A DNA stretch of 64,000 bases from Limnobacter litoralis. Its GTDB lineage: Bacteria > Pseudomonadota > Gammaproteobacteria > Burkholderiales > Burkholderiaceae_B. Below are positions 355-19,429 of the stretch, piece by piece. Within the stretch, counting starts at the first letter, position 1, and each line of letters begins with the position of its first letter. The stretch is taken from NCBI RefSeq assembly GCF_030160455.1, contig NZ_BSOJ01000006.1:310001-374000 (forward strand), written 5' to 3'. The notes beneath the pieces are model-generated. The model ran no database searches, was not told the origin of the DNA, and was given only the letters and a program-made list of their open reading frames with translations. Position numbers and translations under genes: made by a program.

Positions 355-2034
355 TTATTTGGCTGCTCCCAAAGGTTTCCAGGGCTCACCCGGGGTGTGA
401 ATCAAAAACTGATTCTGCTTTTCCAGAATGGTGATGTCGCCCTGTTGTGCCACAAACCGTGTGGTCTTCAGACCTGCTGCAACCTGTGCCCAGTTGTTTT
501 TGTCTTGATCGGTCGGGCTTAAGGTCATCCAGTTGTCAATCAGCCGGGTCAGTTGGAAGTAACTGGTTGGCTGCTTGATTTCAATCGGTGCGCTGTTGGT
601 CGATTGTTCGGTCGCTTGTGGATCAATCCAGTAGCCCAGCACAGGCACTTCTGTGATGGCTGGGGTGGGCAATTCACGCAGACCCACCAGTTGCCCGTAC
701 TCGCCCGTCATGCCTGCACCGTGTTCCGGAATAACAACCACCAGGGCGCGTTTGCCCGATTGCCTGATCAGGGCAATCACGCTCTCAATGTCGTCAAGCA
801 GACCGCTGAGTCGAATCGGGTAGCTTTGTACACTGCTCATGCGATGGTTGGGCAGCTGATTGCCGTCGTGCATGGTGATGGTGTTGTAGTACAAAGCAAC
901 AGGGCCAGCGTCCTTGGCCATTCTCTGTTTCCACCAGGCTTTCAGGTAGTCGCCGTCTCGGGCCACCGGTGAGCCATCGAAGGCCACCGTGCCCAAGGCC
1001 ACCTGGTTGTACTGGATGGGCTGCGTGTAGGGTGCGCCAATGTTGTCAAGCACTTCAGTCTTGAAATTGTCGAAACTGCCGTTGTGATTCAGGCCCACTT
1101 CAATTTTGTAGCCCGCCTGATTCAGCTGATTAAACAGCAGGCATGATGGGTCGGCTCGTTGATACAGCGCATTGTGCTCAGGCTGTCCGCAACTGCTGCG
1201 CAGAAGTCTGAGCGCAGCAGGGCCGGAATAACTGGTGGCGGAATTGAAATGCGTGAAGACAAAATTGGCTTGCTTGAGCAGTGGATGCTGAGTTTGTTTG
1301 GCGAAACGAAGATCTGACCAAGCGAGCGAGCAGATGTGCAAAAACACAAGATCGAAGTCGGGCTGCCCGATGCCTCGGGTGAAGTGATTCAGCGCGATTG
1401 CTTTTTGCTCCTGGAAGAATAGGGTCAAGATGGATTGCGGGCTGTCTGTGCTTTCGCTGCCGGGCGCACCTTGACCATCCAGCAGATTTCTGGCCTTTTG
1501 CAGCTTTGCAAAATCCTGCGGGCCCAGCGCGATTTGTTCAGCCGCCAAGGCGCCATCTCTGACCGGTGTGTAATGCGCGGCTTGCAGTGGGGCCTGGTTT
1601 TGCGACTTGCCTGGCAGCAGCAGGCCGATGCAGACCAAAGCCAGTGTGCCGCCCACCCAGGAAGTGATGCGTAAATAGCGATACAACACCCGCAAAGCCA
1701 ACAGGCCAATGGCAACGCCCCAAAGCAGGGTGGGCGAGATCGACCGTTGAACCAGCTCCAGCAGGTAGTCACCTGAAAAGTTGCGAAGAGCCAGAATTTC
1801 GTCAAACAGTTGGGTGGACAACACCAGTCCAAATTCGTGCAGCGCGAGTACAAACGCCAAGGGCAGGAAAATCAGCAATGACAAGGCCACCTTCAGGCCA
1901 GCGCGTCGAATGGGCATCCACTGGAACGCCAGCAGGGCGACAAACAGCAAGAGATTGAGCCAGGGGGACATTTGAAGTTTGCCACCCAGTTGCAAGCCTA
2001 TTTTGACTAAAAAATAAAGGTTCCAAAACAGCAT
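355..2034 (-). CDS. bcsG: Cellulose phosphoethanolamine transferase BcsG
   Basis: Inner-membrane enzyme of the alkaline phosphatase superfamily that transfers phosphoethanolamine onto cellulose in the periplasm. The N-terminal ~140 residues carry several hydrophobic segments; the soluble catalytic domain follows. Counting from the ATG at 2034 (559 residues, the same length as E. coli BcsG), I see the conserved CSLAW (Cys about 235), the nucleophile Ser in SYSGPA (about 270), a TMHDG segment and PEHGAG (Glu/His about 437-438), all family hallmarks. The ATG overlaps the bcsA stop as TAATG; a GTG four codons upstream is a weaker alternative. Its presence means the polymer is probably pEtN-modified cellulose. 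Confidence 0.93.
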   Translation of the reverse strand: MLFWNLYFLVKIGLQLGGKLQMSPWLNLLLFVALLAFQWMPIRRAGLKVALSLLIFLPLAFVLALHEFGLVLSTQLFDEILALRNFSGDYLLELVQRSISPTLLWGVAIGLLALRVLYRYLRITSWVGGTLALVCIGLLLPGKSQNQAPLQAAHYTPVRDGALAAEQIALGPQDFAKLQKARNLLDGQGAPGSESTDSPQSILTLFFQEQKAIALNHFTRGIGQPDFDLVFLHICSLAWSDLRFAKQTQHPLLKQANFVFTHFNSATSYSGPAALRLLRSSCGQPEHNALYQRADPSCLLFNQLNQAGYKIEVGLNHNGSFDNFKTEVLDNIGAPYTQPIQYNQVALGTVAFDGSPVARDGDYLKAWWKQRMAKDAGPVALYYNTITMHDGNQLPNHRMSSVQSYPIRLSGLLDDIESVIALIRQSGKRALVVVIPEHGAGMTGEYGQLVGLRELPTPAITEVPVLGYWIDPQATEQSTNSAPIEIKQPTSYFQLTRLIDNWMTLSPTDQDKNNWAQVAAGLKTTRFVAQQGDITILEKQNQFLIHTPGEPWKPLGAAK

Positions 2035-4541
2035 TACAGTTCCCACTCCCTGCGGGTTGAGGTCTTTCCTCGCACCAGGCGTTCAACGCCCGCGTTCACA
2101 CCGCGCCCAATCCACTTGAACAGACGCCCGTAGCCGATCAGACCACGTTGGAGTACGTCCTTCAAGCCATTCAGTGCTCGGTCTTTGACTTCGAGTTCTT
2201 GCCAGTTTAACCAGGCGTCGGCACGCCCGAAGGTGCACTGAATGAGTTGGGCCTCCTGTTCGGACCGCAGGTCTGTGAAGTGCACCTCGACCCGGCCACT
2301 TTCAATGTGGCGCAGTTTGGCTGGAAACAGAAACTCCCGATCGCCGCGATTCAGACCCACCTGCACATCGCTGAATTCGCGCAATTGCTCGGTTTGCGCC
2401 ACGGCCAAAGTGATGGATGCGGCTGAGTATTCTTCGGTGTGGCAATTCAGCGTGTAGCCCCCAGGCAGCTTCAGAAATGCGGGTATCACCATGCGCACCC
2501 TGTGGTGAATGTGTTTCTGGCTGACTTCTGTGGCAACACCCACCGCTGCGCCCAGAATGGCCAGGTTGAAAAAGCACCACAGCAGGTTCATCAGCACGGT
2601 GCCGGTTTCGTAGGTGTTCCAGAAAGCAAGTCGACCGAGTCCGACAAAAAAGCCGATGAGGTTTAACAGCATCAGCACGAGGTAGGGGCGTGCAATGTTT
2701 GAGTCAAAGTAGTCGGAGTCGATCAACCCCCCTTTGGAGGTCACGTTGAACTTGCCCAGTTTGGGATTAAAAAAGGCCAGGGTGGTTGGCAAAATGATGT
2801 ACCACGACAGCACGGTTTCATACACTTCTGACCAGAACGAGCGACGGTATTTGCCCTGAATGGCCGAGTTGGTGTAACTGGCCATGATGAGTTGGGGCAG
2901 TGCGTAGCTCAAGATGGTGACCGCGGCTGAATTGATCAGGTGTTGTTCAAAGTACAGGTAGGCCAGTGGCATGATCAGGAACAACAGCCGCGGAATGCCA
3001 TAGAAAAAGTGCAGCATCGCGTTGCCATAGCAGATCCGCTGGAACAGATTCAGACCTTTTTTGAAGAAGGGATTGTCCACCCGGAAAATCTGGGCCATGC
3101 CACGGGCCCAGCGAATGCGTTGGCCAATGTGGTCTGCCAGCGTTTCAGTGGCCAGGCCAGCCGCTTGAATGCTGTTCAGGTACACGCTGGTGTACCCTTT
3201 CGAGTGCAGCTTCAAAGAAGTGTGTGCGTCTTCAGTCACGGTTTCTACAGCGATTCCACCCACAGACAGTAGCGCATCGCGCCGAATGATTGCGCAACTG
3301 CCACAGAAAAACGAGGCGTCCCAGAAGTCGTTGCCGTCTTGAATCAGACCGTAAAACAGACTGCCCTCATTGGGCATTTGGCGAAACAGGTTGAAGTTAC
3401 GCTCAAAGGGGTCGGCCGAGAAAAAGTGGTGAGGTGTTTGCACCAGTGCAAGGTTGGGGTCTCGGGAAAACCAGCCCATATTGGTCTGCAAGAACGACCG
3501 TGTGGGAATGTGGTCGCAATCAAAAATGGCGATGTACTGGCCGTGGGTGTGCTTCAGCGCATAGTTGATGTTGCCCGCTTTGGCGTGAGAATTGTCTGGC
3601 CTGGAAATGTATTCAACGCCAGCCTGTTTGGCGAACTCCTCAAACACGGGCCTGTGCCCGTCATCCAGAATGTAGATCGAAATTTTGTTTTGTGGCCAGT
3701 CCAAACCCCGTGCGGCGTACACCGTGGGTTTCACCACAGAAAGGGGTTCGTTGTAGGTCGGAATGAACACGTCAACATGCGGCCAGTCCCCAACATCGCT
3801 GGTTAGGGGCAATGGCCTTCTGTTCAATGGCCAGGCTGTTTGTATGAAGCCCAGAACCAGAATCAACCAGGTGTAGGCCTCTGCAAACACCAAAAGATAG
3901 CCCAAGAACAGCTCGGTGCCCGAATTCAGGTCCAGCGAGCTGGTGAAACGCCAAAACACATAGCGACTCAGCACCAGCATGGTCAGCATCATCAGGCACA
4001 GGTGGGCAAACCGCTTGGGCATGCGTTTGAACAGCATGGCAAACACATAACACACCCCAATGAATACCCATTGACCGTAAAGCGGTAGAGACACCTGCGC
4101 GACGAACGCAAAAAGCCCCAGACCTGCCAGAAAGATCGGAAAGAACAGCCATCTGGAGGACACACTCAATTGACTGAATTCAACCAGCCGGTTGACCAGC
4201 CCCATTTGTCGGACCGACTGGTCGATTGATTTGGCAAGCCTGTGCCGAAGCAGACGCACTGGCATGAGTAGCCACCACAGCAGCCGCAGTGGCGGCCCGA
4301 GCAGGTCCATTACTGCGGTTTTGAGGATGTGACCTGCAATCAGAAACAGCTCGAAAAACAGGTTGCGCCCAGTTTTGAATGACGAGCCCGCGCTATTCAG
4401 GTTGTCGGGTTTGAACCAGATCGCCCTGAAAATTCGGAGCAGCCGCTGGCGGCTGTTCAGTTGGGGGTAAGCGCGCAGGCCGAGATTGACTTCCAGCCAC
4501 TGAAGAATCACCTGACTGCGGTTGATGGTCTCCTCGTTCAT
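2034..4541 (-). CDS. bcsA: Cellulose synthase catalytic subunit BcsA
   Basis: Processive family-2 glycosyltransferase of 835 residues that polymerises UDP-glucose and threads the glucan through its own membrane channel. Membrane segments flank the GT domain. The catalytic set is complete: DDG (293-295), DCD (341-343), TED (436-438), QRIRW (474-478), and the gating loop FNVTSKGG (598-605). A C-terminal PilZ-like region starts near 675, but the c-di-GMP motifs are not canonical: the RxxxR position reads HIHHR (677-681) and the D/NxSxxG position reads EYSAAS (704-709). Start ATG overlaps the bcsQ stop (ATGA). The active site looks intact; control by c-di-GMP is doubtful. Confidence 0.96.
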   Translation of the reverse strand: MNEETINRSQVILQWLEVNLGLRAYPQLNSRQRLLRIFRAIWFKPDNLNSAGSSFKTGRNLFFELFLIAGHILKTAVMDLLGPPLRLLWWLLMPVRLLRHRLAKSIDQSVRQMGLVNRLVEFSQLSVSSRWLFFPIFLAGLGLFAFVAQVSLPLYGQWVFIGVCYVFAMLFKRMPKRFAHLCLMMLTMLVLSRYVFWRFTSSLDLNSGTELFLGYLLVFAEAYTWLILVLGFIQTAWPLNRRPLPLTSDVGDWPHVDVFIPTYNEPLSVVKPTVYAARGLDWPQNKISIYILDDGHRPVFEEFAKQAGVEYISRPDNSHAKAGNINYALKHTHGQYIAIFDCDHIPTRSFLQTNMGWFSRDPNLALVQTPHHFFSADPFERNFNLFRQMPNEGSLFYGLIQDGNDFWDASFFCGSCAIIRRDALLSVGGIAVETVTEDAHTSLKLHSKGYTSVYLNSIQAAGLATETLADHIGQRIRWARGMAQIFRVDNPFFKKGLNLFQRICYGNAMLHFFYGIPRLLFLIMPLAYLYFEQHLINSAAVTILSYALPQLIMASYTNSAIQGKYRRSFWSEVYETVLSWYIILPTTLAFFNPKLGKFNVTSKGGLIDSDYFDSNIARPYLVLMLLNLIGFFVGLGRLAFWNTYETGTVLMNLLWCFFNLAILGAAVGVATEVSQKHIHHRVRMVIPAFLKLPGGYTLNCHTEEYSAASITLAVAQTEQLREFSDVQVGLNRGDREFLFPAKLRHIESGRVEVHFTDLRSEQEAQLIQCTFGRADAWLNWQELEVKDRALNGLKDVLQRGLIGYGRLFKWIGRGVNAGVERLVRGKTSTRREWEL

Positions 4542-5278
4542 CCGATCTCCAGATCAATCCAGTTGGAGCGCTTTTGAAAATCTTCCGTCAGTTGTGACAG
4601 CGGCGCATAGTCCTTCAAGGGCGAGCCTGTGGCAAAACTCTCGGGCAGGGCCTGGTCTTGATGCAGGTAAAACGGCAGCAATCGATGTCCCAGCTTGATT
4701 TTGCACAAGGTCCAGATGTCCAGATGCAGTACGTGGGTCGATTCAAATCGGTTCATCAGAAAATAGGACGCCCCGCGACTGTTTTGCAGTGCGGGCAGCA
4801 GCGCGTTGCAGGACAGAACCGACCCTGAATCCGGGGTCATGGTGATCAGGTTCATGTCCGAGATCGCCATGAATCGCTCACACCACACATTGGGCCACCT
4901 TGGCAGGTCGACCACCATCACAGTCTTTTCATGAAGGGGGGGCTGCCCCATCAGGTTCAGAAGTGGATCTGCGGTGCGGGCCAGAAGGTTCTGAACGCTG
5001 TAAAGGTCTTGCCCCTGCATGTCGCCAAAGGGCAGCAAGCGCAGACCACTGTCGGCCGTTACGATGGATTCTGACAGCGCCCGCCCTTCAGACAGGCAGT
5101 GTGCGAGGCCCAGTGCAGAACGATGTTCCAGACCCAGCTGATAAGTCATCATGTTCACAGGGTCTGCCTGTACGAGCAGCACATCACGACCCAGTTCGTG
5201 CAGCAGCAGCGCCAGGTTGAGTGCAATGCTCGTTCTGCCGCTGCCGCCTGTGGATGAAATGAGGTTGATGGTGATCAT
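4538..5278 (-). CDS. bcsQ: Cellulose biosynthesis ATPase-like protein BcsQ (MinD/ParA family)
   Basis: A 246-residue MinD/ParA-like protein; in E. coli BcsQ works with BcsR at the cell pole to support assembly of the secretion complex. The N-terminal P-loop reads STGGSGRTS (residues about 8-16), so the Walker A Lys is Arg and the upstream signature Lys of the MinD class is Thr. E. coli BcsQ also departs from the consensus here, as I recall it, so this may be a family trait. The Walker A' region (LLVQADPVN) is recognisable. It lies five bases after bcsF and is translationally coupled to bcsA by an ATGA overlap. Confidence 0.85.
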   Translation of the reverse strand: MITINLISSTGGSGRTSIALNLALLLHELGRDVLLVQADPVNMMTYQLGLEHRSALGLAHCLSEGRALSESIVTADSGLRLLPFGDMQGQDLYSVQNLLARTADPLLNLMGQPPLHEKTVMVVDLPRWPNVWCERFMAISDMNLITMTPDSGSVLSCNALLPALQNSRGASYFLMNRFESTHVLHLDIWTLCKIKLGHRLLPFYLHQDQALPESFATGSPLKDYAPLSQLTEDFQKRSNWIDLEIG

Positions 5279-5283
5279 CTGTT

Positions 5284-5490
5284 TTAATCGTCGCTGTCGC
5301 TAGGGGCCGCAATCCACTTGCCGTGGCGGACCAGTTGATAGGTGTTGTCGGGTAGTTCGTTGTTGCTCCAGTTCACCCTGTCGCTTAGCCAGATCCGGGT
5401 GGCCGGAATTGCCAGCATCAGACGGAAGAGAACAATACTGACGCACAGGCCAAGCAGCAAGCCAACGACAAGGAATGCGAGGATGATCAC
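5284..5490 (-). CDS. bcsF: BcsF-like small membrane protein
   Basis: I choose the GTG at 5490, which overlaps the bcsE stop as GTGA, giving 68 residues. An upstream ATG at 5574 would give 96 residues but buries the start inside bcsE. The protein is one long N-terminal hydrophobic segment (IILAFLVVGLLLGLCVSIV) followed by a short polar tail ending in SDSDD. BcsF of E. coli is a ~63-residue single-pass membrane protein that recruits BcsE to the membrane. The assignment rests on size, topology and the position right after bcsE; sequence similarity to BcsF is weak by eye. Confidence 0.65.
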   Translation of the reverse strand: MIILAFLVVGLLLGLCVSIVLFRLMLAIPATRIWLSDRVNWSNNELPDNTYQLVRHGKWIAAPSDSDD

Positions 5491-6902
5491 GATTGTCGCT
5501 CCATTTGCAGTAGTTTTTCCAGTCTTCGCATCCAGGGACGCTTCAGCCTTCCGCGCGCCGGGTCGTCGCGCCACACGTCAATCAGCGAGGTCTGTTCCCC
5601 GAGGTCTTTGGGCTCCAGGTCAATCGCGCTTAAAGCTTCCCGCTCCTTGGAGAGCGCCCGCAACAGCTCGATCTGGGCCTGCTTTTCGTCGTAATGAACC
5701 AGGCCGCCAAACAACGTGGCTCGGTCATCCTGAAAGCACTCGGACAACCAGTTGTCAAGGGCCGTTGTGTCAGGCGGGCTTGCCCAAACCCGAAACAAAT
5801 ACACCCCATCCAGGGTGGCCAGGGCGCTGGCGCGAGTCTCCAAGGGGTTCAGCAGGCGTGCAGCCTGGCTGGCCGTCACGTGGTTCAGCAGCGACAGCCG
5901 GGTGATGGTGCAGTAAATACCCCAGCGTGCGGCCTGATGAATCACCTGCAGGCAGTTGACTGAAAAATCACGTGAACTCAAGAGCACCAGTTGACCGGGC
6001 GTCAGCGCCTCATGAAGGTCTTGGGCAAAGTGGCTACTGGATTGTTCTGCGTCGTCGTGGCTGTAGTCGGGTATCCACTGAATTCGCTCTTCAGCCAATT
6101 CCGCATGCGACTGACGCCAACGCGCTTCGTCGGTGATGATTGTGTTGGCGCCCATGCGCAGCAGCATGGTGTTATCTGCCTCGCTGATCAGGCCATTGCT
6201 GACGACATGAATGTCGCAGGGCTCCGCGTTCTGAAATCGAAGCTGGTATACGCGTCGTGCAAGAAAGTGTAGATGCTCGGCTTTGGTCAGTCGGATGCCG
6301 ATTTTTGATACAGCTGGATCCGCGTCTTCCGACAAATCGCCCCACAGATTGCACACTTTGCCCCAGGGTTGCGTCCACCAAGATCGCGTGGTTTTTTCCG
6401 CTTGAGCGTCCCAATTGGCAAGTCCATCCGCAAAGGCCGCCCATGAGCTCAATCGCCCTGCCAGCGGCAGAATGACGGAGGCTTTGTGGAATGCAGCCCA
6501 ACGTTGCAGCAGCATCATCTGCCTCAATGGACTGGATTCAGTCAGTGAAATCCGGTCACAGTGAATCCACAAATCCGGTCTTTCAATCAGCACCAAATTG
6601 GGCGTCAACAACAGGTGGGTGTCCAGCGCCCTGCACAGGCCTCGAATGTCTGTGTCTGCCTTGCCGTTTTTCAATGTGGGGCGAATGGAGATCACGTCCA
6701 GACCTCGGGTATTGCGTTTGGGCCCTTTCAGAAATGGGGCCAGAAAGTCCTGAACTTCATGTGCAGGTTGCCCGGTCAACCACAAGCAGCCTTTGAATTG
6801 CCCGTTGTGCTTGTTGTTTAGCCAAAGCCTCAACCAATGCTTGGTTAGACCTTCAACGGATCGGGTCTGGATGACATAAACCCCTGGATTCAGCGCGTCC
6901 AT
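5487..6902 (-). CDS. bcsE: BcsE-like c-di-GMP adaptor of cellulose synthesis (degenerate site)
   Basis: Start taken at ATG 6902, just after the bcsC stop, with AAGG about 10 bases upstream; this gives 471 residues against ~523 in E. coli. A longer in-frame reading from 7115 would lie inside bcsC. BcsE is a cytosolic multidomain protein (degenerate receiver, NTPase-like and GGDEF-derived GIL domains) that binds c-di-GMP and boosts cellulose output. The stretch LLRMGANTII matches an E. coli BcsE segment (LLACGANMII, from memory). Where E. coli has the RTGD binding site, this protein appears to read ETRA, and no RxGD occurs anywhere in it. Confidence 0.8.
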   Translation of the reverse strand: MDALNPGVYVIQTRSVEGLTKHWLRLWLNNKHNGQFKGCLWLTGQPAHEVQDFLAPFLKGPKRNTRGLDVISIRPTLKNGKADTDIRGLCRALDTHLLLTPNLVLIERPDLWIHCDRISLTESSPLRQMMLLQRWAAFHKASVILPLAGRLSSWAAFADGLANWDAQAEKTTRSWWTQPWGKVCNLWGDLSEDADPAVSKIGIRLTKAEHLHFLARRVYQLRFQNAEPCDIHVVSNGLISEADNTMLLRMGANTIITDEARWRQSHAELAEERIQWIPDYSHDDAEQSSSHFAQDLHEALTPGQLVLLSSRDFSVNCLQVIHQAARWGIYCTITRLSLLNHVTASQAARLLNPLETRASALATLDGVYLFRVWASPPDTTALDNWLSECFQDDRATLFGGLVHYDEKQAQIELLRALSKEREALSAIDLEPKDLGEQTSLIDVWRDDPARGRLKRPWMRRLEKLLQMERQS

Positions 6903-6906
6903 GCCA

Positions 6907-9315
6907 TCAAAACCTTGAATAGGGAACCAGTGGTTCCGGTGGTCGGCTGATCGGGAATTCATCCAGAAACGAATACTTGAGATACACCGAAAACACATCC
7001 GGGTTGTAGCCCTGTGATCGATCAATGTTGATCGTGGTTCCCAAGGCCAGCGAGGGCAAAACTTGCCGCTCCAACGCCAGTTTAAAGCTGGTACTGGCCC
7101 CTCCACCTTTGCCACCAGCGATCACCGTGGGGTTGCCCTGTGCCGCAGCTTGCTGAGCCAGTTGAGGGTCCAGTGGGTAAAGGTTCGCGTCACTTTCGCG
7201 CGATTGGCTTGCGCCAATGCCCAGTTGCGCTTGCCACGACCATTTTTCGGTGCTGCCAGTCCAGGTGATCGGCAAAGTCAGGCTTGCGAAGGATTGAGGG
7301 CTGTAATAGCCGCCTTGCCCATAGGTGTAATAGCGCAAATTCTTGTCAAATTTCCACAGAAAAAGTGAGGCGCCTACCTCGACCTTCTGCCCCGCCTTTT
7401 GGTAGATGGTTTTGCTCAGAATGCCCTGTGCGTTCAGCTCGGTGTTGTCGGGCACATGATGTCCGGTAATCAGATTGGCCCGCGCGATGCCGACAAAATC
7501 GAGTGTTGGTGTGATGGGTTCATACACCACGGCAGACACACCATTTCGGCGAGCACCACCCCAGGCTTGCCCAGACACCGGGTCAATTGCGCCAGTCATG
7601 GAGAGCACACTGCCCGACACCATGCGCCGCGCCAGCTCCAAGCGTAGCGAACCCGGCCCCAGATCGGTTTTCCATTGAACACCGCCCACCCAGTCATTCA
7701 CCGGCAAGTTGCCGGTTGTCGTGCCGAGGTCCAGCCTCAGTCGGTCTTGTTGCAGACCAATGCCAACCACTTGGCCACTGAAATTCTGATTCAAAAGATT
7801 CTGTTGCACCGCAGGCGAGTTGGTCACCACGGTGCCCACCTGTGCAAAGGTGTTGGCGGTGGCGGGGTCAACCGTGCCAGCCTCTGCCTTCAATGAGTCG
7901 GCCCGCACAAACAGGGTTTGATTGGCGTCGAGCGGCAAATCAACCTGCAGTGGAATTTCCTGTGTTTTGATGCCCGACACGCCTGCACTGCCGTCGATTT
8001 TTGAAGACGCGGTGGACATTTGGATGCGCGGGCTGGTTCGCATTCGGATTTCTTTTTCAAGCGCCTGCACTTCAGGTTCCGCCCGCCAGCGAGGGGTCTC
8101 TGAAATAATGCCCGCCACCTGGTTGTAGTCATCGCGCCGCTGTGCTGCCCTCAAGCGGTCCAGATATTGGTTGTAGCTCAGCCGCCTTTCCATGCCTGAC
8201 ATGCCCGAAGACCACTGGTCTTTGGGTACGCGATTCAGCAAGGCCAGGGCGTCTTGATCGCGGTTTTGCTGACTGGCAATCAGGACGCTGGCAAAAATCA
8301 TGTCCGGGTCATTCGGCTTCAGCGCAAGGCCAGTCTCCATCAGGTCTCGCGCTTCCTGAGGCTTCTTCTGGTCATTCAATGCCGATGCCAGGCTGTATCT
8401 GAACCAGGCGTAGTCAGGCACCTTCGCGATGGCGGCTCGCCATTTGTCTTCAGCCTTGGCTGTTTCACCTTTGACCAGCAGCTGGTCTGCATCGTCGCTG
8501 AGCTGTTTGGCCTGGTCAAATGTTGACAGCTCAGGTGTCTTTTCGGGATTCCCAGCCGCTTTGGCAGTTTCCGGATTAGGCGGCTGGACCACCGCGGGTG
8601 GTTTGGGTGTGTCAGGCGCCTTGGTCTTGGTTCTTGGTGTCTGTTTGGTCAGCGCAGGCGCTGAATTGGCCACCTGTGGTGGCGAGTTCAACTCGCCTTT
8701 TCCATATCCCAGATCGGCCAGCAGGGTCCGGTACCTGGGGTCTTCAGGGAATTGTCGAATTAGAGCCTCTACCGCCTGGCGCACTGCGGGTCTTGAATTC
8801 GCGTCTTGATTCAAAACCTTGTAGTACTCCACGGCTGCCTGCCCCAGCGGTGGGCGATCAAAAAGAGACTTGAGATCGTCAGCCCAACGGCCGCTTCGCG
8901 CTTGTTCGGTATTGGCCCTGAACTTGATTTCTGCGAATTTTTGCCGCTTGGTGGTGGCCAGTTCAATGGTCTGACGCAACTCAATCGTGTTGGGGTCGTC
9001 AGCACCTGCCTCGCTTTGCAGTCGGTTCAGCCAAACCTGTGCAGACCGTGTGTTGCCTTTGGCCATGTCAACCAGGCCCTGCCATTTCAATGCCTCTGAA
9101 TTGTGCGGGTCAGTCAGCAAAATTTTATTAAACGCCTGAACGGCGAGATCATATCGGTACTGGTTAATCCAATAAATGCCTTTGGAGAGCAAGGTTTGTT
9201 CAGCCACACTTTGCGTGGGGGTACCCGCATTGGGCGTGGCAACGGCATAAGCCCCCCCTTGCGTGGCTGCAAGCAAAAGTCCGGCAGTGCTCAAAGTCCA
9301 GATCTGTTTAGCCAC
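6907..9315 (-). CDS. bcsC: Cellulose export outer membrane protein BcsC (short form)
   Basis: Periplasmic TPR scaffold plus outer-membrane beta-barrel through which cellulose leaves the cell. Start is the GTG at 9315, overlapping bcsZ, with GGAAAGG upstream; it is followed by a signal peptide ending near GGAYA. TPR-like helices lie at about residues 30-120 and 270-370, separated by a Pro/Lys/Thr-rich linker (about 225-275). The C-terminal ~330 residues look like barrel strands and end in the aromatic SRF, as outer membrane proteins do. At 802 residues it is much shorter than E. coli BcsC (about 1157), mostly through fewer TPRs. Confidence 0.9.
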   Translation of the reverse strand: MAKQIWTLSTAGLLLAATQGGAYAVATPNAGTPTQSVAEQTLLSKGIYWINQYRYDLAVQAFNKILLTDPHNSEALKWQGLVDMAKGNTRSAQVWLNRLQSEAGADDPNTIELRQTIELATTKRQKFAEIKFRANTEQARSGRWADDLKSLFDRPPLGQAAVEYYKVLNQDANSRPAVRQAVEALIRQFPEDPRYRTLLADLGYGKGELNSPPQVANSAPALTKQTPRTKTKAPDTPKPPAVVQPPNPETAKAAGNPEKTPELSTFDQAKQLSDDADQLLVKGETAKAEDKWRAAIAKVPDYAWFRYSLASALNDQKKPQEARDLMETGLALKPNDPDMIFASVLIASQQNRDQDALALLNRVPKDQWSSGMSGMERRLSYNQYLDRLRAAQRRDDYNQVAGIISETPRWRAEPEVQALEKEIRMRTSPRIQMSTASSKIDGSAGVSGIKTQEIPLQVDLPLDANQTLFVRADSLKAEAGTVDPATANTFAQVGTVVTNSPAVQQNLLNQNFSGQVVGIGLQQDRLRLDLGTTTGNLPVNDWVGGVQWKTDLGPGSLRLELARRMVSGSVLSMTGAIDPVSGQAWGGARRNGVSAVVYEPITPTLDFVGIARANLITGHHVPDNTELNAQGILSKTIYQKAGQKVEVGASLFLWKFDKNLRYYTYGQGGYYSPQSFASLTLPITWTGSTEKWSWQAQLGIGASQSRESDANLYPLDPQLAQQAAAQGNPTVIAGGKGGGASTSFKLALERQVLPSLALGTTINIDRSQGYNPDVFSVYLKYSFLDEFPISRPPEPLVPYSRF

Positions 9316-10486
9316 AATGTCCGCCTTTCCACGTCCTGGGTTGCATGCCATGCTGGCTGCTCACGCTGTAGCGTTGCTGCAGATTGCCGCGGGCAAACAA
9401 AGTTAAAACGCTGTTGTAGTAGCCGTAATCCAGCCATGCTTTGCTTGAATCGCTTGTCAAGCCTTTTGATTCCAGTTGCCGGGCCAGTGTCTTGTCGCCC
9501 AGCTTGATCATCAAGGGCGCTGCAGCCACCTGAAACCCAGCTGGACCGTTGTCTTCTGACACCTTGCCTTGCCAGGGGTTGGCCCACAAGGGCACGGCAC
9601 CCCGCTTGGCAATTTCGCGGGTAAAGGGTTTGATTTGTTGAATCAGGCTCTTCTCCATCGGGTCTGCACCACCGTCCATGCCCAGCCACAAATACACTCG
9701 AATGGCGTCGTAATCTCCGCGTCCGTCCTCGGCCGGGCCCAATTGGCCGTTTTTCAGCGTGACCCAGTCTGCAAAACTGCCATGACTTGCCATTTGCATT
9801 AAAAGGCGCTGATTTGAGAGATACAGCTCAGCCCAGCGTGGCTCTTCGGCCTGTGATTGGGCCAAATAGCCCAAAATAAATGCAGGTGCATAACTCGGGT
9901 TCAGTCGGACATCGCCGGACGAATTGCTGAATCCTTTTTCACCGGGCAGCAGTGACAGCCCCAAACCAGTCACCACCTGGGTTTCGCGGTTGAGCAAATT
10001 CATGCCCATGGCCTTCGCAGTGGCTGTGTATTCGGGCTTGCACCACAGGCGCCCGGCCTGATCCAGCGTAAAAACCATCCACAAGTCGGCGTCCGAAGCG
10101 CTGTTTGAGTCAATGACCGCCCAACCTTTGTCACTTTTGCCCCAAATCCATGCGGGCAGGTTTTTCCGAAGATCGCCCGCGGCCAGATTGTTCTGCGTCC
10201 AGGTCAGAATTCGGTTGAAACTGTCTTTGTCATTGGCAGCCAGTGCAAAGAAAAGGGCATAGGCCTGCCCTTCAGAGACCGTTCGAAGATCGCTCTCGCT
10301 GTGATCGACGACTCGCCCGTCTTCACTGAGATAAGCGCGCTTGAAGTGCGCCCAGTCGGGCCAGTCGGAGTGGGCACCAAACAGGGATTCAATGGTCCCC
10401 ATGACCCCCGCACGTGCGCTTGGGGCAGTGGTTGCCAAAGCCACCCCCATCGCAAGCATGCCGAAGACGATGCGCCAGCCTTTCAA
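9308..10486 (-). CDS. bcsZ: Periplasmic endo-1,4-beta-glucanase BcsZ (GH8)
   Basis: Family 8 glycoside hydrolase that trims cellulose in the periplasm during export; 392 residues. A signal peptide ends at about residue 26 (SARA). The catalytic acid is Glu72 in VSEGQAY, the GH8 signature SASDADLWM sits at 129-137, and Asp260 in DYDAIRVYLW matches the presumed base. The start codon is TTG, directly after the bcsB TAA, with AGGGT upstream inside the bcsB end, so expression should be coupled to bcsB. Confidence 0.94.
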   Translation of the reverse strand: MKGWRIVFGMLAMGVALATTAPSARAGVMGTIESLFGAHSDWPDWAHFKRAYLSEDGRVVDHSESDLRTVSEGQAYALFFALAANDKDSFNRILTWTQNNLAAGDLRKNLPAWIWGKSDKGWAVIDSNSASDADLWMVFTLDQAGRLWCKPEYTATAKAMGMNLLNRETQVVTGLGLSLLPGEKGFSNSSGDVRLNPSYAPAFILGYLAQSQAEEPRWAELYLSNQRLLMQMASHGSFADWVTLKNGQLGPAEDGRGDYDAIRVYLWLGMDGGADPMEKSLIQQIKPFTREIAKRGAVPLWANPWQGKVSEDNGPAGFQVAAAPLMIKLGDKTLARQLESKGLTSDSSKAWLDYGYYNSVLTLFARGNLQQRYSVSSQHGMQPRTWKGGHCG

Positions 10487-12736
10487 TTATTTACCCTGCA
10501 TGCGTCGGCTTGCCCGCTTTGAAAGCCAGCCAAACAGCAGTACAGCAATCAAGATGCCAGCCACTGCACCTGTCACGGCAATCAGCGCAGGGTATTCCGA
10601 GAACGCAATTCGAACGCGCAGCCACCAAGGCAGGTTGCCGCTGACGTAGGAATGTCCGAGGTTAAAGCTTTCCACTTGTTCGCCACGGAACAAGGTGACG
10701 TTGCCCCTGATTTTTGCCACGTCGTCGTAGTTCGACAAACCGCCCAGTGCTCTTTCAAAGCTGGTGGAGTCAGTGCCTGTAATGACCAGCCCCGCATGTT
10801 TGGCCGCAAACGACGATTCGAAGCCCATGATTGCACCCAGCTCACCTTTGGCCTCGATCAGGGCTCGACCCTGTTCCGGGTTGTTGGGGCGATTTCTGGA
10901 TTTGCTGAACTGATCAAACCACCGAATGGGCAAAGGCGCATTCATGGTGCGCAGCATGGAAGTCAAAACCATGGGCAAGGATTGTTTACTTTTGTCCAGC
11001 CATCCCATCCGGTCTGTGGTGCCCAAGGCGAGCCAGTCTTTGTTCTGGATTTGACCAAGCTGATCTGAAAACAGCACGGTGACGCGCGTACCAGGCAGCC
11101 CGGTCCATTGTCCGAACAGTCCCATCACATTCAAAAAGCCATTCACCTCCTGTGTGTTGGGTTGCACAGGCAGAACCACAGCGGTGTGCGACAAATCCGC
11201 ATAAATTGTAAATGGATAGCCGCCGTTGGCAAATGCAGTCAGGTTTGGCATGGGGGTGTAATGCGGCAGGTCAGAGAAATCCAGCGTGGATTCCGGATCG
11301 ATGGAGCCGCGCGCGGGCAGTGTGGTGCCCGAGCAGTTTTTCTCGCCTTCCGGCATGAATGCAAATCCGAAGCTCAACTGGTTGGATCCGCCCACCCTGA
11401 ACGCTGGAATCTGAAAAGATTCTTCCTGAGCCAGTTCGGTCTGCCCCAACAGGTTCAAGCCCAATCGATTCTGGTTCTGGCTTTCTCTCGGGGGTAGCCT
11501 GAACGATTGAATCAGATTGTTGTTGATTTCGATGTTCAGCAAGGAGTCATTCCACCGGGATGGTGCGGTGTATCGGTATTTCAGCGACATCGGAATGTTC
11601 TTTCCCGCCCAGCTGAACAAATCGGGAGGAAGGCGCAGGTTCAGGGTTGCTGTCGGGTTGTCAGAGCTGACCTCCAGTTGTCGTGGGTAATCCATCAGTT
11701 CAGCAAATCGCACTGGCCTGCTGGTGGGCACATAGCGGGGTGCGTCGTAAGGCTTCCGGTTTGGTCCCAGGTCCACCTTCTTCACTTCGGCTTTTTGCCC
11801 GCTCAGGGTTTGCGCCTCCAGCACAAGGCCCAGCACTGCTTGCGTCAGTTCGTCTTCGTTTCGGCCAATCACATAAAGCCGCTTGATCCAGGGCTTCACA
11901 GGATCCGCTTCAATTTCAAGGGTGGGGCCCCGGATGTCAGCCTTGGTCTGACCTTGGGGCAACTGGTCGCCAAGGCTCAAAATAACCGTGTTGTGGTCAT
12001 CATCGGGCGCGGACACCACATGAAATTCAGCTTGCCGATAGAAGGCTTGCGCACCAAACCACGAAGTCAAAATGCCAGCGGCCTTCAGCACTTGCGCCGA
12101 GTGTGAGGCAGGCAACACCACCTGCAGATTCAATTTGCTGTTGTCGCGAGGGTCAAAAAACGGTGCCGGCAGAAGCGCCAAATCATTGACCAGTGTCAGC
12201 GGCTTTGAAACCAGGGTCAGCGTGCTGTCCGGGCTGATGTCGAAACGAAGGGTCGGGTTTTCCTGCGACACGCACTGCGCATCGTAAGTGCCGTCGTATT
12301 CAATGCGCAGGTTGGTGAAATCGCTGAACAGGTTCGGGTTCAGGTCAATTTGCATGTCATGCAATGCGCCAGCGTCTTCTTTTTTCAGTTGTGCCATGCC
12401 GGCCAGTTGGTCATTCACATACACCCGAATGAAAGACTGGTCATGGCGCATACCCGGCGGGTAAATCGCCTTCAAATCCAGCTTTGCTGAGGTGATGAAT
12501 TCATCCAGACGCACACCGGTTGACAGGTTGACCGATTTCACCAGTCCTGTCAGCTTGATCCCGTTCGGTTGTCCCATCGCGGCAAGCGTCAACACCCTCG
12601 ATTTGAGGCCTGATGCGGTAACCGGCGCAGCCGCCTGCTGCGCTGCCGTGGGTTGGGAAAGTTCAGGGGCCTGTGCATGGACGGAAGTCAGGGCTAGCCA
12701 GAACATGGACGCAACGGTCAGCGATTTTTTGAACAT
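10487..12736 (-). CDS. bcsB: Cellulose synthase regulatory/periplasmic subunit BcsB
   Basis: First gene of the operon, 749 residues. BcsB forms the periplasmic crown on BcsA and guides the nascent glucan through carbohydrate-binding and flavodoxin-like domains. A signal peptide (residues 1-22, ending VHAQA) starts the protein, and a single C-terminal transmembrane helix (about 718-740, AVAGILIAVLLFGWL) followed by Lys/Arg residues anchors it beside BcsA. The ATG at 12736 has no clear Shine-Dalgarno sequence, consistent with a short leader. A possible -10 (TATAAA on the minus strand) lies about 25 bases upstream. Confidence 0.94.
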   Translation of the reverse strand: MFKKSLTVASMFWLALTSVHAQAPELSQPTAAQQAAAPVTASGLKSRVLTLAAMGQPNGIKLTGLVKSVNLSTGVRLDEFITSAKLDLKAIYPPGMRHDQSFIRVYVNDQLAGMAQLKKEDAGALHDMQIDLNPNLFSDFTNLRIEYDGTYDAQCVSQENPTLRFDISPDSTLTLVSKPLTLVNDLALLPAPFFDPRDNSKLNLQVVLPASHSAQVLKAAGILTSWFGAQAFYRQAEFHVVSAPDDDHNTVILSLGDQLPQGQTKADIRGPTLEIEADPVKPWIKRLYVIGRNEDELTQAVLGLVLEAQTLSGQKAEVKKVDLGPNRKPYDAPRYVPTSRPVRFAELMDYPRQLEVSSDNPTATLNLRLPPDLFSWAGKNIPMSLKYRYTAPSRWNDSLLNIEINNNLIQSFRLPPRESQNQNRLGLNLLGQTELAQEESFQIPAFRVGGSNQLSFGFAFMPEGEKNCSGTTLPARGSIDPESTLDFSDLPHYTPMPNLTAFANGGYPFTIYADLSHTAVVLPVQPNTQEVNGFLNVMGLFGQWTGLPGTRVTVLFSDQLGQIQNKDWLALGTTDRMGWLDKSKQSLPMVLTSMLRTMNAPLPIRWFDQFSKSRNRPNNPEQGRALIEAKGELGAIMGFESSFAAKHAGLVITGTDSTSFERALGGLSNYDDVAKIRGNVTLFRGEQVESFNLGHSYVSGNLPWWLRVRIAFSEYPALIAVTGAVAGILIAVLLFGWLSKRASRRMQGK

Positions 12737-12961: not shown

Positions 12962-13294
12962 ATGGTTTCTCTAGATGACATTGGCGACGTGTGCGTCATT
13001 CGATTGTCAACGGTGCGACTCGACAGTTCAGTGGGTACGGTCATTCGCAACTCAATCGTCTCCAAATTTGACTCGCATTCAAAGTTCGCACTTGACATGA
13101 CCAGCGTCAAGCTCGTGGACTCGGGTGGCCTGGGTGCCTTGGTGGCTGTTTTGAAAAACATCACCAGCCAGCAGGCCAGTCTCGTGCTGGTCGGCATGCA
13201 AAAGTCGGTCAAGTTGATGTTTGAATTGTCCCGAATGGATCGCCAGTTCAAAATGGCCGAGTCGGTGGATCAAGCGATTGAATTGATGAAATAA
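12962..13294 (+). CDS. STAS-domain anti-sigma factor antagonist
   Basis: A single STAS domain (110 residues) of the SpoIIAA/RsbV type. The phosphorylatable serine is Ser54 in LVDSGGLGAL. Such proteins bind an RsbW-type kinase or another target when unphosphorylated and are released by phosphorylation. AAGG lies just before the ATG. The next gene, eight bases on, encodes both PP2C phosphatase and HATPase kinase domains, so the two are very probably a switch pair, as HsbA-HsbR in Pseudomonas. It is divergent from the cellulose operon; the downstream target cannot be read from sequence. Confidence 0.9.
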   Translation: MVSLDDIGDVCVIRLSTVRLDSSVGTVIRNSIVSKFDSHSKFALDMTSVKLVDSGGLGALVAVLKNITSQQASLVLVGMQKSVKLMFELSRMDRQFKMAESVDQAIELMK

Positions 13295-13302
13295 GGCCCC
13301 AC

Positions 13303-16300
13303 GTGCAGTCAAGCCCCGCCCCACGCGATCTGACCAAGCCCACCGTTCTGGTGGTGGACGATTCCTTGGTCGATCGAACCTTGTATGTAAATATGGTCGA
13401 GAAGTGGGGTTATCCGGTGGAAGTGGCTTCTGATGGCGAGCAAGCCATCGAGATCATTCGCAGCAAGCGTATTCAGTTGGTGCTTGCAAATTGGCAAATC
13501 CCCGGCATGATGGGCACTGATCTGTGTATCCGGTTGCGCAAACTCGGCCTTTCTCATTACACCTACATCATCCTGATGTCGGCGCAAAATGCTGAAGAGT
13601 TCTTGATCAAGGCCCTTGATGCGGGTGCGGACGACGTGCTCAGTAAACCGGTCGACAACAATGAGCTTGAAGCACGCCTGCAATCTGCAGTGCGTCGAAT
13701 CGGTCTTCAGGCCAGCCTGGCTCAGCAAAACAACCGTCTCGTTCAAGCCTACGATCTGATCGCGCAAGACCTTCGGACCGTCTCAAAACTGCAGCGAAGC
13801 TATCTACCCGATGCAATCTGTGAAACCCCCGAGCTTGATTACCGGTGGCTGTCCATTCCCTCGCAATATGTGTCTGGCGATCACCTCAGTGTGTTTGCGC
13901 TGGGCGGCGGCAAATTTGGCTTTTACGTGTTGGATGTGTCTGGGCACGGCATTCCGGCCGCCGTCAAGTCCATGCAACTTGTTCAAATGTTCTCGGATCA
14001 GTCTGCATCAAGCCTGGTTTACGACCCTCCCCTGTCAAGCATCGGCGGTCGTTCCGTGGCGCGTCCGCGCGACGTGGTGGCTCGCTTAAATCGTCTGTTC
14101 CAGCAAACCGATTCGGATCTTTCCTATTTCACGCTGATTTACGGGGTGTTTGATGCCCCATTGCGTCATGTCACCCTGTGTCAGGCAGGTCACCCCAATC
14201 CGCTGCTGCTGCGTGCCGATGGTTCAGTGACCGCCATCGGCAACGGTGGTTATCCGGTGGGCCTGTTTGATGTGGACGAATACGAGGACATTGAACTTGA
14301 CCTGGGTCCACATGACGCATTGATGCTTTATTCCGATGGCGTAACCGAGGTGCTGAACGCCAGTGGAGAACCGTTTGGTGAAGACCGACTGCTGAGCTTT
14401 TTGCAGAAAGAGCTGGCCAGTGGCAACACCCCGGCCTTGATTGATCATCTTCAGGATGCGGTGCAGCAGTGGGGCGGGCGAGCCGTGCTGGATCGCGGTT
14501 TTGAGGATGACGTGTCCATCTTGATGCTGACGCCTGAAAAAGGGGTGATCAACCCTTCGTGTGAAAATCTGGACGCGCTTTGCGAAGAGGAACCTGCAAG
14601 CGATCCGGTGTTCAGAAGCCAGGCCTGGCAGGTCATGGATGAGCAGGCCCTGCAGGCAGACGAACAATCCCAGCTCGAGCCCTCCATCGTGATCGTAGAC
14701 GATTCGCGCAGCTTTTTGCGTATCTTCGAGGCCATGTTAAGCAGTTGGGGCTATCGGGTTCATCCGGCCAAAAGTGGTGATGAAGCGGTTCGCCTGATCG
14801 AAGAGGTTCAGCCCGACTTCGTATTGACCGACTGGGACATGCCCGGCATGAGTGGAATCGAACTGTGCGAACAGGTTCGAAGTTCCCAGCAAAGCAATTA
14901 CATTTACATCATCATGATCACCGGCTTTGCTTCCCGCGAGGAGCTCTTGCGCAGCCTTCGGGTGGGTGCCGACGATTTTCTGACCAAACCGGTCAACCCC
15001 AGTGAGTTGAAGGTTCGGTTAAAAACCGCGCTTCGCATTTCCAGTCTGCACAAAGACCTGGAGAGGAAGCACCTTGAGCTTTCCGACCTGTATCGCTCAC
15101 TGCAGCGCGACATGCGCGAGGTGTCCCGTATCCAGCGCTCATTGTTGCCCAAAGGGCGTACTTCGTCCTGGCCGATTACCACTCAGACTCTGTATCGGCC
15201 ACGTCGGTATGTGTGTGGCAAGCAAATGGGCACCTTGCAAACCCAGGCCAATGAACTTGGATTTTTCATGTTGTCATTGCAAGGCGATGGCACCTCAACC
15301 GCGCTACAGGCCATGGCATTGGCAAGGTGGTTTTCAATGGCGCGGGCCACCCAGGTGCTGTTTCCAGTGGAAGAGTTCAGCAGCAAGTTCCGGCGCTATC
15401 TGGCCGAGCCCCACGCGGTTTGGGATCAGGTCAGCGAGCTTTCCCCCACCATTGACCGTGAATTGCTCGAGTTCGACTTGCTGTACGGGCTGATCAATCT
15501 GGATCAGGGCACCTTGTTGGTGGCCGGTGTGGGCCACTGGTCATTGCTGTTGGCCGAGCCGGGCAGACCGCCTGTGCTTCTGAAAACAGTCGATCAGGCA
15601 GAGGCGGGCAAAAAGCCAATGGCCATCTTGTACCGGGATGTCATTCGACCGGGCTCTCGTGTGTTTGCCTTGCCAGACTCTTCCCTGCAAAGCATGGGGC
15701 TAGGTTCGGAGTCCAAATGGATGGAACTGGTGCTCGACAAGCAGCAGGACGGCTCCATCCTGATCAACGATTTTTCCAGGCTGTCTGCTTTGAGCATGCA
15801 GTCCGGCTCTGATTTAGAACCCCACATCGGCATTGAGTCAGAGGTCAGTGAGTTACCTCTGTCAGGTCAGGCCGGGACCGATGACATTGCGATCATGGGT
15901 TTTCAATGGCGAGAGTATTTTCCGGTGCATCGCCCAGCCTTGTCAGACACTGAAAAGCAGGCCATCTTGCTGGAAGTGGATCGCTTGCTTGAATTGGGGG
16001 AGGCTGCACCTGATGAGCCTTCAGAACAAGCCTTGACTGCGGGCCGAGCCAAGGCATGGCTAAGCTACGAGGCGGTCGCAGACACCGCCAACATCGGCCA
16101 AATCAGCACGGAAGTGCGCAATTGGGTTGAAAGTCACGGATGCGACGACACCTTGTCGTACAAAGTGGATCTCGTGCTCTCCGAGGCGATGACCAACGTC
16201 ATGAATCACGGGTTCCGCAATCAGTACCCCGCACCGATTCACCTCACACTGATTCTGTTTGAGCGAGGTGTGGCCATTTTACTGAGAGACACAGGCCTTC

Positions 16301-16485
16301 GAATTCCTGAACGTGTGGTGGCTTCAATCCGCAGTGACATGGCCTACATGGACAAGCTTTCTCTTCAGGAATTGCCAGAGGGTGGAATGGGCTTGACATT
16401 CATCCGGATGTCCTCAAGGCGATTTGCCTACACACCAGCCCACCACGACGGCGCTGAGTACAACCAGTTGGCGCTGTTTATTTAA
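13303..16485 (+). CDS. REC-PP2C-REC-PP2C-HATPase partner-switch regulator
   Basis: 1060 residues from a GTG start with AAGG upstream. Domains: REC1 (about 12-130), PP2C/SpoIIE-like 1 (about 165-412), REC2 (about 460-578), PP2C-like 2 (about 605-868), RsbW-like HATPase (about 915-1060). REC1 has the acidic pair Asp19/20 and Lys115 but Asn63 at the phospho-acceptor position. PP2C1 keeps GD (193), DVSGHG (211-216), YSDG (343-346) and EDD (401-403). REC2 is canonical: Asp466/467, Asp510 in LTDWDMPG, Lys562. PP2C2 reads GK at GD and SLQGDG at DVSGHG, so metal ligands are lost. The HATPase has an N-box (EAMTNVMNH, 961-969), DTG (996-998) and GGMG. It probably both phosphorylates and dephosphorylates the adjacent STAS protein. 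Confidence 0.9.
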   Translation: MQSSPAPRDLTKPTVLVVDDSLVDRTLYVNMVEKWGYPVEVASDGEQAIEIIRSKRIQLVLANWQIPGMMGTDLCIRLRKLGLSHYTYIILMSAQNAEEFLIKALDAGADDVLSKPVDNNELEARLQSAVRRIGLQASLAQQNNRLVQAYDLIAQDLRTVSKLQRSYLPDAICETPELDYRWLSIPSQYVSGDHLSVFALGGGKFGFYVLDVSGHGIPAAVKSMQLVQMFSDQSASSLVYDPPLSSIGGRSVARPRDVVARLNRLFQQTDSDLSYFTLIYGVFDAPLRHVTLCQAGHPNPLLLRADGSVTAIGNGGYPVGLFDVDEYEDIELDLGPHDALMLYSDGVTEVLNASGEPFGEDRLLSFLQKELASGNTPALIDHLQDAVQQWGGRAVLDRGFEDDVSILMLTPEKGVINPSCENLDALCEEEPASDPVFRSQAWQVMDEQALQADEQSQLEPSIVIVDDSRSFLRIFEAMLSSWGYRVHPAKSGDEAVRLIEEVQPDFVLTDWDMPGMSGIELCEQVRSSQQSNYIYIIMITGFASREELLRSLRVGADDFLTKPVNPSELKVRLKTALRISSLHKDLERKHLELSDLYRSLQRDMREVSRIQRSLLPKGRTSSWPITTQTLYRPRRYVCGKQMGTLQTQANELGFFMLSLQGDGTSTALQAMALARWFSMARATQVLFPVEEFSSKFRRYLAEPHAVWDQVSELSPTIDRELLEFDLLYGLINLDQGTLLVAGVGHWSLLLAEPGRPPVLLKTVDQAEAGKKPMAILYRDVIRPGSRVFALPDSSLQSMGLGSESKWMELVLDKQQDGSILINDFSRLSALSMQSGSDLEPHIGIESEVSELPLSGQAGTDDIAIMGFQWREYFPVHRPALSDTEKQAILLEVDRLLELGEAAPDEPSEQALTAGRAKAWLSYEAVADTANIGQISTEVRNWVESHGCDDTLSYKVDLVLSEAMTNVMNHGFRNQYPAPIHLTLILFERGVAILLRDTGLRIPERVVASIRSDMAYMDKLSLQELPEGGMGLTFIRMSSRRFAYTPAHHDGAEYNQLALFI

Positions 16486-18530: not shown

Positions 18531-18568
18531 GCCATTGTTTAACAACATTGTTACTTGAGAGTTCAGCC

Positions 18569-19429
18569 GTGATTGCCTCGTGCACCCTGTTCAAACGTCT
18601 TGCCGGCCTGTTGGGTCTGTTGTTGTTGGTCGGGGTGTCTCCCCATTCAAATGCAGCCACTCCAGTGGCCAAATCGGTGGGCTGGGTGGCCTACTCCAAG
18701 GGTGCTCAAATTTGGGTGCCGGGTGCCAAAAAATCAGTGCCCCTACCCACGCTGGCAACGCTCACATTCGGCAGTCAAATCAGCCTGAAAAAAGGCGACC
18801 AGCTCTCGGTCATTGTGTTTTCCAACAACACGCGGCGCGACTACACCGGCCCGGCCAGTCTGCGTGTGATCAAAGACACGGTGTCTTTGCGATCTGGTGC
18901 AGAACCCGAGGTGTTTCCGGTTGCCCCTGAGCAACTGAAAGTCATTCAACAATGGCTCAATTTGCATCCCAATGGACTGGGTGACATGCCAAAACCCACA
19001 GGCTTGGGCAAGCTCACCTTTGATGTGATCAAACCACTGGATGGCGCGCTTTTTCTGTCGCGCCAGCCTGAATTCCTGTTGACTGGCACGCTGCCACGAG
19101 ACGCCAAATTGCTGATTTACGACAAAGACAATCGCCGATTCTGGGTCGAACCCCTTGAAGACAAACACGTCACTTTTCCGCCCGCTGCCGAATTTCACTG
19201 GGGCGAAAACTACAGCTGGGAAATCCGCAATTTCACGGGTGGCTCGCTCTTGAAAGGTCGATTCAAAATTGCCACCGAGCAACAGGCCTACCAGCTCTAC
19301 AGCGCGAAGGTGCCCGTTTTGCCCGACACCCCCAAAATTGATCTGGTGTTGTACGCCCTTACCTTGCAAATGGCAGGCGCTTACCCTGAGGCGCAAGACG
19401 TTTGGGCCAGCCTGCACAATTTGCAGTAG
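18569..19429 (+). CDS. Exported protein of unknown function
   Basis: 286 residues from the GTG at 18569; a TTG seven codons upstream is possible but the signal peptide (LFKRLAGLLGLLLLVG to SNA) fits the GTG better. The first ~90 mature residues, predicted beta-rich (GWVAYSKGAQIWVPG, FGSQISLKKGDQLSV, YTGPASLRV), are reminiscent of FecR-like sandwich domains, but I am not confident of that. The last ~30 residues (IDLVLYALTLQMAGAYPEAQ) look like a TPR-type helix pair. It follows pldA closely and may be cotranscribed. Periplasmic location is inferred; no function can be assigned. Confidence 0.7.
   Translation: MIASCTLFKRLAGLLGLLLLVGVSPHSNAATPVAKSVGWVAYSKGAQIWVPGAKKSVPLPTLATLTFGSQISLKKGDQLSVIVFSNNTRRDYTGPASLRVIKDTVSLRSGAEPEVFPVAPEQLKVIQQWLNLHPNGLGDMPKPTGLGKLTFDVIKPLDGALFLSRQPEFLLTGTLPRDAKLLIYDKDNRRFWVEPLEDKHVTFPPAAEFHWGENYSWEIRNFTGGSLLKGRFKIATEQQAYQLYSAKVPVLPDTPKIDLVLYALTLQMAGAYPEAQDVWASLHNLQ

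Follow-up and report, generated by a model that had tools for sequence, protein, structure and literature searches.

We identified a single open reading frame (ORF) of 1060 amino acids (13303..16485, forward strand) in a 64,000-nucleotide window of the Limnobacter litoralis genome that encodes two receiver-phosphatase units in tandem, followed by one kinase domain, in the order REC1-PP2C1-REC2-PP2C2-HATPase. All positions below are numbered within this window. An earlier note, made from the sequence letters alone, had read this domain order and a duplicated REC-PP2C unit in the ORF; our searches confirmed the order in one polypeptide and found the unit present twice. The architecture is real, conserved and found in one genus only, and it represents a variation on HsbR/CrsR-type regulators. 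Judged from its residues, PP2C2 is a conserved pseudophosphatase that looks dead.

Orthologs were found in 15/15 other Limnobacter genomes, which are all of the searched genomes of the genus besides L. litoralis; one is split over contigs and one has an in-frame stop. The alignment comprised 17 ortholog rows, of which two are the halves of one gene cut at contig ends and one is shortened by the in-frame stop. An in-frame TGA occurs in the ortholog L021 (G010), whose assembly is 65% complete, and reflects either an assembly error or a pseudogene. PP2C1 has all four metal-ligand aspartates (DDDD) in each of the 15 rows that span them, and REC2 keeps its key residues (DDDTK) in all 16 rows that cover it, so that the earlier description of a live-looking PP2C1 and a canonical REC2 holds across the genus. 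The claim that PP2C2 lacks metal ligands was also borne out. None of the 16 rows keeps Asp at either of the first two ligand positions, which instead have K, E, Q or C (position 640) and S or N (position 658). Position 792 is Asp in L. litoralis alone (1/15), where its context is PDSS and not SDG, and position 861 is Asp in 15/15 rows. PP2C2 is thus short of two or three of the four ligand aspartates in every ortholog covering these sites.

The earlier note had also read the two halves as having lost opposite functions, with Asn63 at the REC1 phospho-acceptor position and a PP2C2 without its metal motifs. As a conserved design this does not hold: Asp occupies the acceptor column in 15 of the 16 rows that cover it, and only the L. 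litoralis genome has Asn63. Therefore, both receivers normally keep their acceptor in this genus. Of the two patterns that the note set apart, PP2C2 shows conserved decay (16/16 rows) and REC1 random decay, with damage in 4/16 rows at differing residues. From the alignment, the ligand-poor PP2C2 is a genus-wide trait and the dead REC1 is not. It is quite possible, at slightly less than even chances, that the acceptor was lost recently by chance or that Asn63 is an artifact of sequencing, and that it does not affect the mechanism in this strain, a reading compatible with the others considered below. Its codon is one base from GAT, which is used at this position in 8 of the 13 other aligned full-length genes (GAC in the other 5), the residue is unique among the 16 rows, and REC1 pockets are eroding in three other species as well (Val19 in L018, Gly20 in L021, and Ser19 with Leu93 in L022). 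These three differing losses, on the other hand, point less to a single error than to lineages that can do without phosphorylation of REC1.

We compared the selective constraint on the two phosphatase domains as the ratio of nonsynonymous to synonymous substitution rates (dN/dS), by the Nei-Gojobori method in nine chosen ortholog pairs. In the six least diverged pairs, some of which already had dS >2, the ratio was 0.207, 0.051, 0.039, 0.033, 0.043 and 0.060 for PP2C2, and 0.053, 0.034, 0.041, 0.040, 0.036 and 0.039 for PP2C1 in the same pairs; in the remaining three, dS was >2 or not computable. The HATPase domain gave ~0.3 in two saturated pairs that include the L. litoralis gene. We conclude that PP2C2 is under purifying selection, looser than that on PP2C1 and far from neutral. 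Mean conservation was also calculated by structural element, with limits taken from the predicted model. PP2C2 exceeded PP2C1 in the linker helix (0.89 vs 0.84), alpha1 (0.91 vs 0.89) and beta4-5 (0.94 vs 0.81), and fell below it in the sheet beta1-3 that carries the first ligand positions (0.82 vs 0.89) and in the later strands (0.62 vs 0.79). This pattern leans towards retention of the linker and alpha1 in PP2C2.

The genes around the ORF supply a plausible substrate. A STAS-domain protein is encoded directly upstream, with a gap of 8 bases between the end of its gene (13294) and the start of the ORF. A STAS gene next upstream, with bcsB-bcsZ-bcsC divergent, was found in all 13 ortholog context loci fetched, and two further genomes outside this set (G004 and G010) likewise have a STAS match just upstream. 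The motif KLVDSGGLG is kept in 14/14 aligned STAS proteins, and the longer VKLVDSGGLG differs among them only by V or I at the first column. By analogy with RsbV and SpoIIAA, we take the Ser of VDSGGLG to be the phospho-site. PP2C1 is the sole SpoIIE match in the genome at E 1e-5, and the ORF is the genome's top HATPase_c_2 match (59.9 bits; the next among the matches listed, 35.1). A Pfam match and a motif check place at the C-terminus an RsbW-like (GHKL) domain that keeps its ATP-binding motifs, the N, G1 and G2 boxes. Thus a kinase, a phosphatase and their likely substrate all lie within two genes.

We then considered the described systems that share these parts. Like the Limnobacter protein, HsbR and CrsR combine receiver, PP2C and GHKL kinase/anti-sigma domains with an anti-sigma antagonist partner, the STAS proteins HsbA and CrsA. 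Present here are the acceptor Asp (in REC2), the PP2C1 ligands, the C-terminal kinase domain and the nearby STAS gene. HsbR, a single REC-PP2C-kinase protein with biofilm as its output, is described as phosphorylating HsbA when unphosphorylated and dephosphorylating HsbA when phosphorylated (PMC6482189). In contrast to the one REC-PP2C-HATPase set of HsbR and CrsR, the Limnobacter protein has a doubled REC-PP2C unit, a second PP2C without ligands, and a locus among bcs genes.

Regulation by dimerization is documented for bacterial PP2C phosphatases of this class. RsbU is activated by dimerization through crossing linker helices, P. aeruginosa RssB (REC-PP2C) has the same crossing-linker geometry, and AlphaFold models cover further architectures, including those with a response receiver (PMC12143880). 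Switch helices lie at the SpoIIE dimer interface, and RssB is a pseudoenzyme that retains the switch (PMC5468089). P. aeruginosa RssB (3EQ2/3F7A) was by sequence the best-scoring solved relative, covering module 1 (phmmer E 1.3e-32; Foldseek ranks 1-4); unlike the Limnobacter protein, it is a single unit that lacks an HATPase, and it dimerizes between chains. A profile search of the PDB with PP2C2 returned two chance matches and nothing else. PleD (REC-REC-GGDEF) pairs two receivers of one chain, as the predicted Limnobacter model does, but its output is a diguanylate cyclase. SypE has one REC and one PP2C, unlike the Limnobacter protein, and its RsbW-like kinase domain is reportedly N-terminal. 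As in our proposal, the kinase and phosphatase of SypE act in opposition on a STAS protein, SypA, in the control of biofilm (PMC12826045). Neither a REC-PP2C-REC-PP2C protein nor a built-in bacterial pseudophosphatase partner was described among the open-licence papers listed, in agreement with the earlier note, which knew of no described example.

Dimer switching in RsbU, RssB and SpoIIE, taken together with HsbR, makes a dimer fused into one chain the simplest account of the doubled unit. We therefore propose, with the chances about evenly balanced, that the ORF encodes a one-protein partner-switching regulator of a STAS protein, in which REC2-PP2C2 is the covalent dimer partner of REC1-PP2C1. 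The single HATPase would phosphorylate the STAS protein encoded just upstream, and PP2C1, as the catalytic phosphatase, would dephosphorylate it. In the predicted model REC2 pairs with REC1; the catalytically dead PP2C2 would pair with and position PP2C1, supplying a partner surface. Phosphorylation of REC2, and of REC1 where the acceptor is kept, would shift the internal pair and with it the balance of kinase and phosphatase, and cellulose synthesis by the adjoining bcs operon would probably be under this control. In such a fused dimer PP2C2 would be kept although dead because its partner surface is needed, and REC1 phosphorylation could erode in some species because one responsive receiver per pair can suffice.

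PP2C2 was predicted as a well-formed PP2C fold, and the model packs REC1 against REC2, both fitting PleD residues 2-289. Several observations weigh against a fused dimer, however. The full-length model is of moderate confidence (predicted local distance difference test, pLDDT, 72; predicted template modelling score, pTM, 0.57), its REC1-REC2 pairing may be the prediction program echoing PleD, and a PP2C1-PP2C2 pairing is absent from the observations made on it. In the two pairs with the L. litoralis gene, PP2C2 dN/dS is ~0.20 with dS saturated. Conservation of PP2C2 is below that of PP2C1 in alpha2 (0.79 vs 0.91) and in the C-terminal part (0.66 vs 0.73). A test of whether PP2C2 has kept its helices in preference to its sheet failed: the paired helix-versus-sheet contrast of 0.107 was matched by 23/103 circular shifts and is not significant, and alpha2 runs the opposite way. 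Homodimers between chains are equally possible. Finally, in a second line of tandem proteins (line B, below), both REC2 and PP2C2 have decayed, so no single decay rule covers the tandem proteins.

PP2C2 could instead serve for binding, much as the E. coli RssB adaptor domain does, its dead PP2C fold holding the STAS protein or another partner (e.g., a sigma factor or diguanylate cyclase) and leaving PP2C1 unregulated. We consider this rather unlikely. In its favor, E. coli RssB is described as a pseudo-phosphatase adaptor (PMC12143880, PMC5468089), and PP2C2 is constrained although it lacks ligands, with a conserved beta4-5 block; the modelled REC1-REC2 pairing and the retention of linker and alpha1 favor a pair. 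A serial relay, the division of labor suggested earlier, in which input at REC2 crosses the dead PP2C2 to PP2C1 and REC1 is a dead receiver, fits the L. litoralis residues taken alone. It becomes improbable once the 15 other rows, all with a REC1 acceptor, are considered, since the layout is independent of a dead REC1; a side-by-side dimer appears to agree better with the predicted model and with what is known of PP2C regulation. That PP2C2 is a decaying relic serving as a passive spacer is very improbable: conservation is poor over its last third (0.62-0.66), but five of the six least diverged pairs give a dN/dS of 0.03-0.06 and the predicted fold is well formed.

Two further, paralogous tandem lines occur in the genus and have decayed differently. 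Line B, a second REC-PP2C-REC-PP2C-HATPase protein, is present in G006 (L026/L077/L114) and G014 (L027/L078/L115); line C is present in G014 (L029/L080) and G015 (L028/L079). Read by eye from the alignment, line B keeps its PP2C1 ligands, its PP2C2 matches Pfam with the first three ligands gone, and its REC2, unrecognized by Pfam and without the Lys, still has Asp at the acceptor column. Line C, read in the same way, has degenerate receivers, and its members differ in which PP2C retains ligands: L029, which has no HATPase match, retains most ligands of both PP2Cs, and in L028 PP2C1 is without its first and third ligand and PP2C2 has Asp at all four positions. Judged by eye from protein starts, line B adjoins prepilin-like genes, with a STAS gene ~9 kb off in both genomes, and L029 adjoins flagellar-type genes.

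In a quick tree of 68 modules, including 32 single REC-PP2C proteins from outside the genus, one branch parted all tandem modules from these 32 (Shimodaira-Hasegawa-like approximate likelihood ratio test, 96). Modules A1 and A2 were unplaced and support for a module-2 clade was 53; neither a module-1 clade (approximately unbiased test, p-AU 0.465) nor A1+A2 (p-AU 0.414) was rejected, and the tree does not fix the order of duplication among lines A, B and C. A single ancestral duplication likely lies behind the tandem proteins, as far as the module sequences indicate. Outside the genus, no tandem protein was found in 252 other genomes of the family (E 1e-45), 398 genomes sampled from the order (E 1e-60), or 368 and 397 sampled from the class and phylum (both E 1e-45); these samples overlap one another, and scoring was confined to the two or three top candidates of each genome. 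Matches in 9 (class) and 22 (phylum) other genomes lay in open frames no longer than 618 amino acids and extended no further than position 437 of the 1025-position model, which corresponds to module 1. A scan of genome contigs of named relatives gave two weak partial matches only (L031 and L032). A Vibrio plasmid match (H1), the only one with >80% coverage among the best 15 of 24 records, was rejected as not tandem; it is a single set matched twice, because it spans only 1617 bases.

A further weak SpoIIE-family match was seen within the genus (L052-L060), in frames of 542-585 amino acids in seven genomes and near 280 amino acids in L057 and L060; this protein was not found in the L. litoralis genome at E 1e-5. 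The features of the locus are collected in Table 1. A bcs operon is reported in Limnobacter alexandrii. Between bcsC and bcsQ, an open frame at 5487-6906 (reverse strand; its listed start, 7115, overlaps bcsC) had no Pfam match at E 0.001 and is possibly an unrecognized bcs accessory protein. A 293-amino-acid protein encoded at 18548-19429 (forward strand) also had no Pfam match at E 0.001, and its gene adjoins a phospholipase A1 gene in 12/13 context loci.

Table 1. Coordinates of the tandem REC-PP2C gene, its domains and its neighbors in the window.
Feature	Position	Strand	Basis
REC1-PP2C1-REC2-PP2C2-HATPase protein, 1060 aa	13303..16485	+	Domain search, predicted model
REC1, residues 12-135	13336..13707	+	Pfam, predicted model
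AAT codon for Asn63, in place of the REC1 phospho-acceptor Asp; found in the L. litoralis genome alone	13489..13491	+	
First long linker helix alpha0, residues 119-165	13657..13797	+	Predicted model
PP2C1, residues 170-412; D193, D211, D345, D403 intact	13810..14538	+	
REC2, residues 459-583, acceptor Asp510	14677..15051	+	
Second long linker helix alpha0, residues 566-613	14998..15141	+	Predicted model, conservation
PP2C2, putative pseudophosphatase, residues 617-869; K640 and S658 in place of the first two ligand Asps	15151..15909	+	
HATPase_c_2 (RsbW-like) kinase domain	16078..16437	+	Pfam, motifs
STAS-domain protein of 110 aa, the probable substrate; candidate phospho-Ser within VDSGGLG	12962..13294	+	Pfam STAS E 6.1e-14
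bcsB, divergent neighbor	10487..12736	-	Synteny in 13/13 context loci
bcsZ (glycosyl hydrolase 8)	9308..10486	-	
bcsC	6907..9351	-	
bcsQ	4538..5278	-	
bcsA with C-terminal PilZ	2034..4541	-	
bcsG	355..2046	-	

More broadly, the tandem REC-PP2C family may represent a phosphatase dimer fused into one chain. After such a fusion, catalysis or phospho-reception could be lost from either half, and the outcome would be dedicated pseudophosphatase activators, each adjusted to its own locus (cellulose, pseudopilus or flagellar); we advance this tentatively, as an idea with rather less than even prospects. If the internal-pair model is true, the Limnobacter protein would be a PP2C phosphatase heterodimer that nature has joined covalently, and would allow a direct test of activation by dimerization in a widespread class of PP2Cs, since one protomer could be mutated and the other left untouched. 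A regulatory role could then be assigned to a pseudophosphatase from bacteria, and two-component input would be connected with a partner switch encoded next to a cellulose operon.
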